The notes under the pieces are model-generated. The model saw only the letters and a program-made list of their open reading frames with translations. It did no database searches and had not been told where the DNA came from. From assembly GCF_004912165.1 (NCBI RefSeq), contig NZ_STGV01000001.1, positions 124,001-188,000 on the forward strand: a stretch of 64,000 nt of DNA, given 5' to 3'. This document shows, piece by piece, positions 12,924 through 15,758 of this stretch. This stretch comes from Peteryoungia ipomoeae. Lineage in GTDB: Bacteria; Pseudomonadota; Alphaproteobacteria; Rhizobiales; Rhizobiaceae. A program made the position numbers and the translations under genes. The stretch's first letter is position 1. The number at the start of each line of letters is the position of its first letter.

Positions 12924-13038
12924 GCAGAATGGTCGGCAAAATTTCCAGACTTTTCGACGCGCAGTTTTCGTCGGCAAGAAAATTCAGCAAAGTCATAGGG
13001 ATGGTCGCGCCGGAGGCGGATTGTCGCAGGCGGTGAGC

Positions 13039-13044
13039 TTGACG
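13039..13044 (+). promoter_or_regulatory. Possible -35 element of the DNA-repair operon
   Basis: TTGACG lies 10 bases before the LexA box, which would then cover the -10 region and transcription start. The -10 hexamer itself is not clear (TATAGG at 13060 has only a 15-base spacer). Confidence 0.35.
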
Positions 13045-13054
13045 AATGTCATTA

Positions 13055-13069
13055 GAACATATAGGGAAC
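13055..13069 (+). promoter_or_regulatory. LexA (SOS) box
   Basis: GAAC-atatagg-GAAC is a perfect match to the alphaproteobacterial LexA operator, a direct repeat GAAC-N7-GAAC (GTTC-N7-GTTC on the other strand). It ends five bases before the ATG of the radical SAM gene and overlaps its ribosome binding site (AGGGAA), so bound LexA would block transcription start or early elongation. Confidence 0.8.
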
Positions 13070-13074
13070 ATGCT

Positions 13075-14304
13075 ATGAAGAAGTCCCTTAAAGAGCGCTT
13101 GGCCATTCTCTCCGATGCAGCGAAATATGACGCGTCCTGCGCGTCGAGCGGGACAACCAAACGCGATTCTTCCGCATCAGGCGGATTGGGGTCGACGGAA
13201 GGTTCCGGCATCTGTCACGCCTATGCGCCGGACGGGCGCTGCATTTCGCTTCTGAAGATCCTGCTGACCAATTTCTGCATTTACGATTGCGCCTATTGCA
13301 TCAATCGCTCGTCCAGCAATGTCGAGCGGGCGCGCTTTACCCCGGATGAGGTGGTGTGGCTGACAACCGAGTTCTATCGGCGCAATTATATCGAGGGCTT
13401 GTTCCTGTCCTCGGGCATCATCAAGTCCTCGGATGATACGATGGCGGAGATGGTCAAGATCGCGCGGGACTTGAGGACGAAACACGATTTTCGCGGCTAC
13501 ATCCACCTGAAGACGATTCCTGAGGCATCCGCGCACCTCGTGGAGGAGGCAGGGCTCTATGCCGACCGATTGTCGATCAACATCGAACTGCCGACCGATC
13601 AGGGGCTCGAGCGGTATGCACCCGAGAAGCGGCCGATCAATATTCGCCGCTCGATGGCCGATCTCAGGCTGAAGATCGACGAGGCCCGCGAGCCGACTCT
13701 GACCGGGCGCCGGAAGAATTTTGTGCCTGGCGGGCAGAGCACGCAGATGATTGTTGGCGCGGATGGTGCAAGCGATGCAACGATTCTCTGCTCAAGTGCC
13801 CGGCTTTACAGTTCTTATGGATTGAAACGGGTCTATTATTCCGCCTTCAGCCCGATTCCGGACAGTTCGCGGAACTTGCCGCTGATCAAGCCTCCCCTGA
13901 TGCGCGAGCACCGGCTTTATCAGGCCGATTGGCTCTATCGCTTTTATGGCTTCTCGGTCGACGAGATTGCCTCGATCGGGGAGGGCGGAATGCTCGATCT
14001 GGAGCTTGATCCGAAGCTCGCCTGGGCGCTGGCCAATCGCGACCGCTTTCCCGTCGACGTAAACAAGGCGGACCGGGAGACCTTGCTGCGGGTTCCGGGC
14101 TTTGGCACGAAGACCGTCAATGGGCTGCTTTCTGCTCGCCGGCATCGCCGCGTGCGGCTTGAAGATCTGTCTCGGCTGGGTGTTTCCCTCAAAAAGGTGC
14201 GGTCCTTCATTGTGGCTGAAGGCTGGTCGCCCAATCGCAGTCTTGATCGCTCGGATCTGCGATCTGTCTTCGCTCCACCAGCCGAACAGTTGTCGCTTTT
14301 TTGA
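13075..14304 (+). CDS. Putative DNA modification/repair radical SAM protein
   Basis: A 409-residue radical SAM enzyme with the cluster-binding motif CIYDCAYC at residues 68-75 and a helix-hairpin-helix DNA-binding region near the C-terminus (VNKADRETLLRVPGFGTKTV, residues ~333-352). The combination matches a conserved family annotated as putative DNA modification/repair radical SAM proteins, which is nearly always encoded beside a UdgX-type protein, as here. The substrate is unknown; by analogy with spore photoproduct lyase it may repair a base lesion by radical chemistry. The ATG at 13075 has AGGGAA upstream. It overlaps the next gene by one base (TGATG), so they are translationally coupled. 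The upstream LexA box places the pair in the SOS response. Confidence 0.88.
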   Translation: MKKSLKERLAILSDAAKYDASCASSGTTKRDSSASGGLGSTEGSGICHAYAPDGRCISLLKILLTNFCIYDCAYCINRSSSNVERARFTPDEVVWLTTEFYRRNYIEGLFLSSGIIKSSDDTMAEMVKIARDLRTKHDFRGYIHLKTIPEASAHLVEEAGLYADRLSINIELPTDQGLERYAPEKRPINIRRSMADLRLKIDEAREPTLTGRRKNFVPGGQSTQMIVGADGASDATILCSSARLYSSYGLKRVYYSAFSPIPDSSRNLPLIKPPLMREHRLYQADWLYRFYGFSVDEIASIGEGGMLDLELDPKLAWALANRDRFPVDVNKADRETLLRVPGFGTKTVNGLLSARRHRRVRLEDLSRLGVSLKKVRSFIVAEGWSPNRSLDRSDLRSVFAPPAEQLSLF

Positions 14305-15758
14305 TGCGGACGGTGACGCTCGAGGGGCGAGGCGGTCTTGGGGAGTGGCGCGATGCTGCACGGCTGCTGCTTGCCGGTGCGGTGCCGCCGCATGAGGTGC
14401 GCTGGCAATTGAAAGGGCAGGGGGATGACCTGTTTGCTTCCGCCGAGCCAGCGTCAGAGTCTTGCCTGCAGTCGGATATTGTGGTGCCCAAGGGTTTCAT
14501 CGAGGCGGCGGAGGCGGCGATCTGCCATTCCGATCCGGATCGCTTTGCGCTCCTTTACCGGGTTCTCTGGCGGTTGCAGGAAGAGCGCAATCTGTTGCAG
14601 GTCACCTCCGATCCTGATGTCTCCCACCTCGTGAAGCTCATCAAGAATGTCAGGCGCGATAGTCACAAGATGAAGGCCTTTGTGCGGTTTCGCGAGGTCG
14701 AGGCAGGGCAGGAAGGAAGGCGACGCTTCGTTGCCTGGTTTGAACCCGAACATTTCATCGTTGCGCGTACCGCCGGCTTCTTTCAGCGCCGTTTTACCGA
14801 CATGGACTGGCTGATCGCAACGCCCAAGGGGTCAGCCGCCTGGAATGGACGGGAACTTAAGACCTATGGTGAGCCCGCCGCCCGACCTGATGCCGAGGAC
14901 GAGACCGACGAGCTGTGGCGCACCTATTTTGCCAATATCTTTAACCCGGCGCGGGTGAAGATAAGAGCAATGCAGTCGGAGATGCCGAAGAAATACTGGA
15001 AGAACATGCCAGAGGCCTCGCTCATTCCCGACCTGATCGCAGGGGCCGAGAAGCGGGTCGCAGAGATGGCGGCGCGCCAGGCAAGTCAGCCGCCGGCCTT
15101 TCATGAGCGGCTGCAGGCGCAGTGGCGCGGGCGAGAGGAAGAGGCGGCGGACGGTCTGCCGCCGCTTGAACGGTTGCGGCAGGAGGCCGCACGCTGCACC
15201 CGGTGTCCGCTGTATTGCCACGCAACGCAGACTGTTTTTGGCGAGGGGCCGGATCAGGCGGCGATCATGTTTGTCGGGGAACAGCCCGGTGATACCGAGG
15301 ATCTGGCCGGTCGGCCTTTTATCGGTCCCGCGGGCCAAGTGTTTGACGAGGCTGTCACCGGTGCGGGGATTGAGCGGGAGCAGGTCTATGTGACGAATGC
15401 GGTGAAGCACTTCAAATATGAGAAACGCGGCAAGCGGCGCATTCACATGCGGCCCGATGCTGGCGAGGTTGCTCATTGCCGCTGGTGGGTGGCGCAGGAG
15501 ATCGAGATTGTGCGGCCAAGGATCGTGGTGGCGCTCGGTGCGACCGCCTATCTGTCGCTGACCGGCGAAAGCCGGCCAATCGCTGAAGTGCGCGGCATGC
15601 CGATCCCGATGCAGGAGGGGCGTATGTTGCTCGTCACCACGCACCCATCGGCGATACTGCGGATGCCTGATGCCGAGCTTAAGGCGCGAAGTCTTGCGGC
15701 CTTTCGTTCAGACCTTTTGGGCGTCAAACGGCTTCACGACACGCTTTCGCTGTCTTGA
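14304..15758 (+). CDS. DUF4130 - UdgX fusion, uracil-DNA cross-linking repair protein
   Basis: A 484-residue two-domain protein. Residues ~1-240 match the DUF4130 domain found in SAM-linked repair proteins of unknown function. Residues ~285-470 form a family 4-like uracil-DNA glycosylase: CTRCPLYC at the start for the iron-sulfur cluster, GEQPGDTEDLAGRPFIGPAG for uracil binding, then KRGKRRIH, whose KRRIH histidine in mycobacterial UdgX attacks the sugar and leaves the protein covalently bound to the DNA. HPSAILR closes the active site. In other genomes the two domains may be separate genes. Start and stop of the preceding gene overlap (TGATG). It should tightly bind uracil sites in single-stranded DNA during SOS. 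Confidence 0.9.
   Translation: MRTVTLEGRGGLGEWRDAARLLLAGAVPPHEVRWQLKGQGDDLFASAEPASESCLQSDIVVPKGFIEAAEAAICHSDPDRFALLYRVLWRLQEERNLLQVTSDPDVSHLVKLIKNVRRDSHKMKAFVRFREVEAGQEGRRRFVAWFEPEHFIVARTAGFFQRRFTDMDWLIATPKGSAAWNGRELKTYGEPAARPDAEDETDELWRTYFANIFNPARVKIRAMQSEMPKKYWKNMPEASLIPDLIAGAEKRVAEMAARQASQPPAFHERLQAQWRGREEEAADGLPPLERLRQEAARCTRCPLYCHATQTVFGEGPDQAAIMFVGEQPGDTEDLAGRPFIGPAGQVFDEAVTGAGIEREQVYVTNAVKHFKYEKRGKRRIHMRPDAGEVAHCRWWVAQEIEIVRPRIVVALGATAYLSLTGESRPIAEVRGMPIPMQEGRMLLVTTHPSAILRMPDAELKARSLAAFRSDLLGVKRLHDTLSLS

Follow-up and report, generated by a model that had tools for sequence, protein, structure and literature searches.

A conserved LexA box and a C-terminal clamp-binding motif in a radical SAM and DUF4130-UdgX operon of Peteryoungia ipomoeae

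Introduction

The SOS response still includes conserved operons that lack an assigned reaction. A candidate for such an operon lies in a 64,000-nucleotide stretch of DNA from Peteryoungia ipomoeae (the window), and it raises two questions: whether it is controlled by LexA, and on what its two proteins would act. A previous reading of the letters alone (the sequence-only reading) had proposed SOS control and a covalent UdgX complex as an intermediate. Here we compare the operon, its promoter region and its proteins with their counterparts in other genomes.

Results

The radical SAM protein

Profile matches bear out the gene pair as first described, that is, a radical SAM gene and a DUF4130-UdgX fusion in which the KRRIH motif is present. 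The start of the fusion gene overlaps the stop of the radical SAM gene (TGATG), and the features of both are collected in Table 1.

Table 1. Features of the operon and its upstream region, in window coordinates.
Feature	Position	Strand	Basis
Possible promoter, CTTGAC 13038-13043 and TATAGG 13060-13065 inside box spacer	13038..13065	+	sequence; comparison of Alphaproteobacteria
LexA box GAACATATAGGGAAC, direct repeat GAAC-N7-GAAC	13055..13069	+	motif read in sequence; conserved near orthologue gene starts
Radical SAM gene, rSAM_link_UDG family, 409 aa	13075..14304	+	TIGR03916 563.1 bits; Radical_SAM PF04055; structure model pLDDT 83
Cys22, Cys47 and Cys56 codons, preceding those of the radical SAM cysteines	13138..13242	+	invariant in 43/43 rows
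Radical SAM CxxxCxxC, Cys68, 72, 75	13276..13299	+	invariant in 43 rows
Helix-hairpin-helix-like stretch, ~residues 325-356	14047..14142	+	sequence pattern; weak RuvA/ComEA-type matches
QLSLF, extreme C-terminus of radical SAM protein, residues 405-409, consensus beta-clamp-binding motif	14287..14301	+	tail comparison
DUF4130-UdgX fusion gene, 484 aa	14304..15758	+	TIGR03915 217 bits, TIGR03914 325 bits; PF13566, PF03167; model pLDDT 88
DUF4130 domain, residues 11-238	14334..15017	+	profile match
UdgX domain, residues 240-471	15021..15716	+	profile match; structure match to M. smegmatis UdgX
KRRIH loop, putative cross-linking His (residue 381)	15432..15446	+	sequence; His aligned across fusions

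The first protein belongs to the TIGR03916 family, which it matches over residues 5-398 with 563.1 bits against a cut-off of 343.5. Its six-cysteine pattern is kept in 209 of 213 rows, and the three cysteines outside the radical SAM motif may bind a second cluster. In lipoyl synthase, too, N-terminal cysteines serve a second cluster, though in a spacing unlike the one here. The helix-hairpin-helix proposed previously is a fair assignment: we read residues ~325-356 as such from their sequence pattern, and matches of the stretch to RuvA and ComEA-type proteins are weak (E 0.14-0.84).

Solved structures sought by sequence for the radical SAM protein gave a best E of 0.14. When its model was compared by fold, the best neighbors among the matches listed were lipoyl synthase (Z 16.2) and HydE (Z 16.1), which are tied. 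This bears on the possibility that the protein directly reverses a pyrimidine photoproduct, as spore photoproduct lyase does, and that UdgX has no part in its reaction. A radical SAM protein in a DNA-repair context would suit such a role, but the structural neighbors lie elsewhere and the presence of three further conserved cysteines points to more complex chemistry, so that we regard it as unlikely. Spore photoproduct lyase (SplB) is not among the 50 structural matches listed, an absence that excludes nothing. PADLOC returned no match for the operon, and PHROGs gave weak matches only, to a radical SAM protein, a DNA polymerase and one unknown (E 2e-5 to 6e-4). A relative is encoded on one viral contig.

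A C-terminal clamp-binding motif

The sequence-only reading did not include the C-terminal motif. The beta-clamp-binding consensus is QL[S/D]LF in the passages of PMC12309361, and comparison of tails shows the strict motif in 189 of 212 radical SAM proteins, against a shuffle expectation of 0.010 per tail. The remaining 23 depart from the strict form, 14 of them fitting a loose form that 0.146 of shuffled tails also fit. Tails of the QLSLF type extend beyond Pseudomonadota to Bacteroidota (Spirosoma), Clostridia (Pusillibacter) and Fusobacterium. Beta-clamp-binding motifs take the form QL[S/D]LF or QxxLF in a flexible region, and the final residues of the radical SAM model have low confidence (pLDDT 58).

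A docking tag at this position suggests that the enzyme probably acts on damaged DNA at the replication fork, although five residues could be conserved for another reason. The motif offers a simple, testable handle on the site of action. We know of no measured clamp binding for the TIGR03916 family, and our literature search returned no report of it; a search on radical SAM, sliding clamp and SOS response found only unrelated work, as judged by title and abstract. The motif has apparently not been reported before in the literature searched.

The core pair and the place of UdgX

Across 398 genomes surveyed, DUF4130 is present in all 84 that have the radical SAM gene, and the radical SAM gene in 84 of the 87 that have DUF4130, the other three carrying DUF4130 without it. 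In two loci (L049 and L054), DUF4130 does not lie next to the radical SAM gene. The pair is seen in Pseudomonadota, Bacteroidota, Bacillota and Fusobacteriota.

The second half of the fusion is a UdgX by its TIGR03914 match (324.7 bits; cut-off 189.95) and by the presence of both GEQPG and KRRIH. UdgX is fused to DUF4130 in most alphaproteobacterial loci read. Among proteobacterial genomes outside the class, 19 of 29 have the pair and no UdgX over the family cut-off; one of these 19 (G705) does have a fused UDG domain, but it scores below the cut-off and lacks the aligned histidine. No fused or neighboring UdgX was found within ~3 kb on each side of the Spirosoma, Pusillibacter, Fusobacterium, Acetoanaerobium and Acinetobacter loci. 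Judged from these gene contents, the constant core is radical SAM plus DUF4130 and the UDG part is optional, which moves the question away from uracil repair.

The distribution weighs on the proposal that the radical SAM protein and UdgX act sequentially on one lesion, the former resolving a covalent UdgX-DNA intermediate. The fusion and the gene overlap in Alphaproteobacteria speak for it, as do the putative cross-linking histidine and GEQPG, which are kept in 167 and 166 of 172 aligned fusions, respectively. Because UdgX is so often missing outside the class, the covalent intermediate put forward in the sequence-only reading is not supported as a general mechanism. It could still hold within Alphaproteobacteria; overall we consider it improbable. 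A reading in which the substrate of the radical SAM protein is not DNA but another protein, either its partner (DUF4130 or UdgX) or the clamp, has a similarly small chance. Protein modification is common among radical SAM enzymes and the pairing with DUF4130 is near-obligate, but the helix-hairpin-helix-like stretch, the clamp motif and the SOS control described below all point to DNA.

A LexA box at the operon start

A perfect GAAC-N7-GAAC stands where it had first been noticed, with five bases (13070-13074) separating it from the ATG of the radical SAM gene at 13075. It is the reverse complement of GTTC-N7-GTTC, which passages of PMC8565304 give as the LexA motif of Alphaproteobacteria and those of PMC9578287 as the motif in Caulobacter, and is thus a LexA box of the class-specific form. 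The suggested overlap with the ribosome site is true of this locus, since AGGGA is found within the box, but as a conserved device it is rejected: 10 of 68 orthologues have a G immediately ahead of the second GAAC.

The number of such sites is uninformative about LexA control. The window has four, whereas shuffles average 1.67 (10 of 100 reach four), and the other three fall within long open frames. The genome has 124, compared with 117 for a reversed control pattern; neither count is in excess of chance. Position and conservation, by comparison, set this box far beyond chance. Its retention upstream of orthologous operons had been named beforehand as a check. Of the 174 alphaproteobacterial loci read, 172 have a perfect GAAC-N7-GAAC or GTTC-N7-GTTC close to the gene start, and the exceptions (L102 and L128) have one mismatch each. 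The 174 comprise 162 from the main search (161 perfect) and 12 that its search word missed and that were read separately (11 perfect); as the loci are related and the samples partly overlap, these counts are not independent. The box occurs in either orientation. In the first three samples, it lies at most 400 bases from the first radical SAM cysteine codon in 68 of 68 full-length orthologues, whereas control patterns give 0-2 each. Perfect control matches in the 162 loci number one for spacing 6, none for spacing 8 and four for the reversed pattern. Once a single mismatch is tolerated, control matches become frequent too (26, 50 and 22, respectively), so the weight rests on the perfect counts only.

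Outside the class, the motif changes. Of 29 proteobacterial genomes, 19 have the E. coli-type CTGT-N8-ACAG at the equivalent position, or 24 with one mismatch, whereas controls give no perfect match and, with one mismatch, no more than 2 of 29; a Caballeronia locus also has this box in place. It was not found in the remaining five genomes, of which one (G410) has no LexA, one (G679) has a weak LexA match only, and three of one genus have a lower-scoring LexA. The lexA promoters of two of these were inspected and carry another motif. A half-match between the lexA and radical SAM promoters of G679 is too weak to claim, and the Xanthomonas-type LexA motif does not occur before the three f174 operons. 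Farther afield, two perfect GAAC-N4-GTTC boxes lie 168-197 bases upstream in Pusillibacter. Sites of this form in Spirosoma and Acetoanaerobium all have one mismatch and may be chance, and no box was found in the L154, Fusobacterium or Acinetobacter loci. Two published Bacteroidetes motifs fit the region before the Spirosoma gene with two and three mismatches at best.

In the source genome, lexA (C1:693763) has its own box, GAACACAACTGGAAC, 45 bases before its start, and the same motif precedes uvrA/ssb and a Pol IV gene. The conservation of the box, its change outside the class and its recurrence before these genes strongly support the SOS control first suggested, and the operon is very likely under LexA control. 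That the match arose by chance and LexA does not control the operon, as the lack of genome-wide enrichment might suggest, is extremely improbable given 172 of 174 perfect loci, the turnover of orientation and the E. coli-type box elsewhere.

A possible promoter under the box

In 111 of 146 Alphaproteobacteria, box positions 6-11 are within two mismatches of TATAAT (shuffled spacers average 27), and 66 of the 146 have a TTG-type hexamer 14-19 bases upstream of the box, compared with 7-16 in other bins of equal width. The box therefore probably overlies a -10 element. A standard promoter scan did not report the candidate at 13038-13065, where the elements are 15-16 bases apart. Transcription from it would produce a very short leader.

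Discussion

The whole is best explained, with a probability of roughly 0.6, by an SOS-induced, clamp-tethered radical SAM/DUF4130 unit that acts on DNA, with UdgX as an accessory. The operon would be a LexA-repressed repair unit. We infer that LexA occupies the box next to the first gene's start, where it probably covers the -10 element, and that DNA damage releases it so that both proteins are produced together. The QLSLF tail would dock the radical SAM protein on the replication clamp while its helix-hairpin-helix-like stretch contacts DNA. At stalled forks or behind them, the radical SAM protein may then act together with DUF4130 on a lesion or a modified base by radical chemistry. In this division of labor, UdgX would remove uracil at the same place and covalently cap the abasic site.

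A broader generalization can be drawn, which we rate as somewhat less than an even bet. TIGR03916 proteins may be radical SAM enzymes recruited to the clamp by a C-terminal QLxLF that form, with DUF4130, a widespread SOS-induced module. At stalled forks, this module would perform on DNA a radical reaction not described so far, and UdgX would have joined the complex later to cap uracil sites there.

Comparison with known systems

SOS control of such operons is already published in kind, for related bacteria. We take COG4277 to be TIGR03916. By that identification, the SOS-regulated COG1573-COG4277 'UDG base excision repair' operon of Bacteroidetes (PMC8565304, which cites earlier reports from Verrucomicrobia and Caulobacter) contains the same pair of gene families, controlled by the SOS repressor. 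There it is termed a uracil-repair system, whereas here the UDG part is optional and radical SAM plus DUF4130 constant; the passages of that paper concerned make no mention of a clamp motif. A figure legend in PMC3765255 records the association of DUF4130 with SplB-like radical SAM and UDG, the same as here, and its passages hold no SOS box, core-pair or clamp analysis of the operon. A literature search for UdgX and radical SAM found no paper. A 47-gene regulon is described for Caulobacter (PMC12700426), and the words uracil and glycosylase are absent from the main texts of that paper and of PMC13384398.

QLxLF is found in clamp-binding polymerases and repair proteins, and the C-terminal pentapeptide here is identical to that of one of them, B. 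subtilis PolC, which ends in QLSLF according to passages of PMC12309361. With lipoyl synthase and HydE, the radical SAM protein shares a barrel fold (Z ~16 across 213-233 residues) at 10-17% identity in the matches listed, and the helix-hairpin-helix-like stretch and clamp tail are its additions. In the fold comparison of the fusion, the UdgX half fills the matches listed, none of which places DUF4130. Mycobacterium smegmatis UdgX shares the KRRIH loop, GEQPG and the fold (Z 30.6, 1.8 Å, 196 aligned residues, 43% identity). Its solved chains have ~200-230 residues and are without DUF4130, whereas the UdgX described here is fused behind DUF4130 in what is very likely an SOS operon.

Operon and LexA box

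The DUF4130-UdgX gene begins on the final base of the radical SAM gene's stop codon. The flanking genes, which we take from their open frames to be greA-like upstream and MFS transporter-like downstream, both run the opposite way, so the operon is a two-gene unit. The sequence-only reading had described both the operon and the LexA box ahead of it correctly. Among named relatives, those closest to the radical SAM protein (78-82% identity) come from Agrobacterium, Endobacterium, Rhizobiales, Niveispirillum and Ensifer.

Features of the operon and its LexA box in the window
Feature	Position	Strand	Description
Box GAACATATAGGGAAC	13055-13069	+	5 bases ahead of ATG 13075
Radical SAM gene	13075-14304		TIGR03916, 'putative DNA modification/repair radical SAM protein', 563 bits (cut-off 343.5)
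DUF4130-UdgX gene	14304-15758		TIGR03915 (DUF4130) and TIGR03914 (UdgX)

Counting alone does not set the box apart from chance: the window has 4 matches where shuffled sequence averages 1.67, and the genome has 124 where the reversed pattern has 117. Conservation does. GAAC-N7-GAAC occurs in all 68 full-length orthologues of the genus, family and class samples, 400-130 bases upstream of the codon for the first radical SAM cysteine. The same stretches contain no GTTC orientation and no spacing of 5 or 8, one match each for spacings 6 and 9, and two for the reversed motif.

Of the hits over the cut-off, 30 of 37 were read from the genus sample (60 genomes), 30 of 43 from the family sample (101 genomes, own genome included) and 9 more of 10 from the class sample (190 genomes). 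The top 80 of at least 592 relatives from named genomes were read too, as were 26 further Alphaproteobacteria of the phylum sample; some genomes may be present in both the named and the unnamed sets. Upstream of these orthologous operons the box is conserved, being perfect in either orientation in 172 of 174 alphaproteobacterial loci (from the genus, family and class sets together with 79 named loci and the further 26) and one mismatch away in the other two (L102 and L128). This figure joins an automated count (161/162) with loci missed by the search word and read separately (11/12). A named locus from a MAG labelled Acidovorax (L154) has no box and was excluded. Among the 162, perfect control matches number 1 (spacing 6), 0 (spacing 8) and 4 (reversed); at one mismatch they rise to 26, 50 and 22, so that one-mismatch matches to the alphaproteobacterial box mean little. 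The GTTC orientation is found in 16 alphaproteobacterial rows, and L125 additionally has both; the occurrence of both orientations is expected if LexA, and not translation, is what preserves the site. In six loci (L195-L198, L201 and L202) the box is GTTCATGATATGTTC, sited further upstream, and the radical SAM protein ends in a six-residue form, QLGFGF.

Change of motif outside the class

The change of motif outside the class is a stronger test of the box than conservation within it. The test took every proteobacterial genome outside the class with a radical SAM gene over the cut-off in the phylum sample, 29 in total. The E. coli-type box, CTGT-N8-ACAG, lies near the gene start in 19 of these, and in 24 allowing one mismatch. 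Controls (spacing 7, spacing 9 and reversed) gave no perfect match, and 0, 2 and 1 at one mismatch. The five genomes without the site are G410, which has no LexA, G679, with a weak LexA match (25 bits), and three of one genus (f174), with a lower-scoring LexA (72 bits). In the two f174 genomes of three that were fetched, the lexA promoter carries TTAGTAGTA-type repeats instead, and these were not found before the radical SAM genes of those genomes.

Among further loci, that of Caballeronia has a perfect CTGT-N8-ACAG, and two perfect GAAC-N4-GTTC sites lie 168-197 bases ahead of the gene in Pusillibacter (Clostridia). Neither Spirosoma nor Acetoanaerobium has a perfect site, though each has one GAAC-N4-GTTC with one mismatch; Acetoanaerobium has a further one-mismatch site of a short Bacteroidetes type. 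With all box types tried, the Fusobacterium and Acinetobacter loci showed no site within one mismatch; Acinetobacter is presumably without LexA. The distant Gemmatirosa protein has one-mismatch sites only, of three types.

Promoter and other box sites

In 111 of the 146 Alphaproteobacteria whose box has the GAAC orientation, positions 6-11 of the box differ from TATAAT at no more than two bases (shuffled spacer letters: mean 27, largest 37 in 200 runs). Of the same 146, 66 have a TTG-type hexamer 14-19 bases ahead of the box, compared with 7-16 in other bins of equal width. Because a standard scan reported no promoter for the radical SAM gene, we only infer that the box overlies a -10 element, which would leave a leader of a few bases.

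Elsewhere in the genome, 20 stretches around listed box sites were chosen, mainly for A+T-rich spacers. In these, a box precedes lexA by 45 bases and a Pol IV gene by 5, and another separates uvrA from ssb (~140 bases from each). AlkZ-type glycosylases are associated with interstrand cross-links, and an AlkZ-like gene (C17:277359, L084) may be SOS-controlled too, since GAAC-N7-GAAC precedes its start by 18 bases. Two other possible SOS genes, each with a box 17 bases before its start, encode a DUF5680 protein (C19:126459, L090) and a protein of 79 residues with no match in Pfam (C1:996977, L080). In several other stretches the box falls within a long frame or ahead of nothing recognisable.

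The core pair and UdgX

Across 398 genomes of the phylum, DUF4130 is over the cut-off in 84 of the 84 genomes with the radical SAM protein, which in turn is over the cut-off in 84 of the 87 with DUF4130. Three genomes of one genus (G529, G545 and G613) have DUF4130 without the radical SAM gene.

DUF4130 is fused to a UDG domain in 30/30 genus, 28/30 family and 4/8 class loci, in 23/26 further Alphaproteobacteria of the phylum sample, in 74/80 named loci and in 11/29 loci outside the class, many loci extending only 1.5 kb downstream and one non-fused named locus (L158) being cut by a contig end. Two unfused family loci (L049 and L054) have the radical SAM gene and box with no DUF4130 adjoining.

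No UdgX is fused to DUF4130 or lies near it in the loci of Spirosoma, Pusillibacter, Fusobacterium, Acetoanaerobium and Acinetobacter. The fused UDG domain of G705 scores below the cut-off, and G679 has an unlinked one (154 bits). As radical SAM and DUF4130 are constant, and UdgX is often absent outside the class and in other phyla, UdgX looks like an addition to the pair. The proposal that a covalent UdgX-DNA complex is the intermediate for the radical SAM enzyme is weakened, UdgX being over the cut-off in just 10 of 29 genomes outside the class. Where fused, UdgX has a histidine aligned with the cross-linking one in 167/172 and GEQPG in 166/172, and its structure model has the same fold as M. 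smegmatis UdgX (Z 30.6, 1.8 Å, 196 aligned).

Radical SAM cysteines and fold

Cys 22, Cys 47 and Cys 56 are invariant in 43 aligned proteins, along with Cys 68, 72 and 75, and 209 of 213 rows conform to the six-cysteine pattern. A second cluster seems plausible. The four rows off the pattern are a different radical SAM protein matching weakly (L071), one whose N terminus is out of frame as read (L131), Pusillibacter, whose cysteines are present with differing neighbours, and Gemmatirosa. The distant Gemmatirosa relative (L239) is without the three N-terminal cysteines and an adjoining DUF4130, and carries QLSLW near its C terminus. In fold, the model (pLDDT 83; poor over residues 23-57) most resembles lipoyl synthase (Z 16.2, r.m.s.d. 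3.3, 230 aligned), tied with HydE (Z 16.1, r.m.s.d. 2.9, 214 aligned). A scan of viral contigs returned a sole relative (61% identity), on a 12.6-kb contig of putative viral origin (L245).

Clamp motif and known systems

We take COG4277 to be the TIGR03916 family. In the available text of PMC8565304, comparative genomics supports SOS regulation of a Bacteroidetes COG1573-COG4277 operon, and regulation of such a UDG-based system is reported for Verrucomicrobia and Alphaproteobacteria (its refs 7 and 65, the latter on Caulobacter); a figure legend in PMC3765255 associates DUF4130 with UDGs and with radical SAM proteins of the SplB-like type. The sequence-only reading of SOS (LexA) control is very probably right, but known in kind. 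In the portion of the literature found, neither the clamp motif nor the make-up of the core pair (radical SAM and DUF4130) appears. A search with most subscription papers beyond its reach returned no link between TIGR03916 and the sliding clamp.

The motif was sought in the tails of 212 orthologues, of which 175 belong to the alphaproteobacterial sets (L154 included), 30 come from outside the class and 7 from a plasmid collection, with two genomes counted twice. Q[LM]xL[FLIW] occurs within the last 25 residues of 189 (0.010 per shuffled tail), a looser form in 14 more (0.146), and the strict form elsewhere in the protein in 3 of 212. The remaining nine are QLGFGF (six), QIELPF, QLSLGF and the Gemmatirosa QLSLW, just beyond 25 residues. 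The stretch preceding the motif is variable and the model's tail is of low confidence, as for a flexible docking tag. Clamp-type motifs occur at protein C termini (PMC4549789, as far as available), and the accessible part of PMC12309361 gives the clamp-binding consensus as QL[S/D]LF, more generally QxxLF. The radical SAM protein ends in QLSLF, the same as the C-terminal clamp motif described there for B. subtilis PolC.
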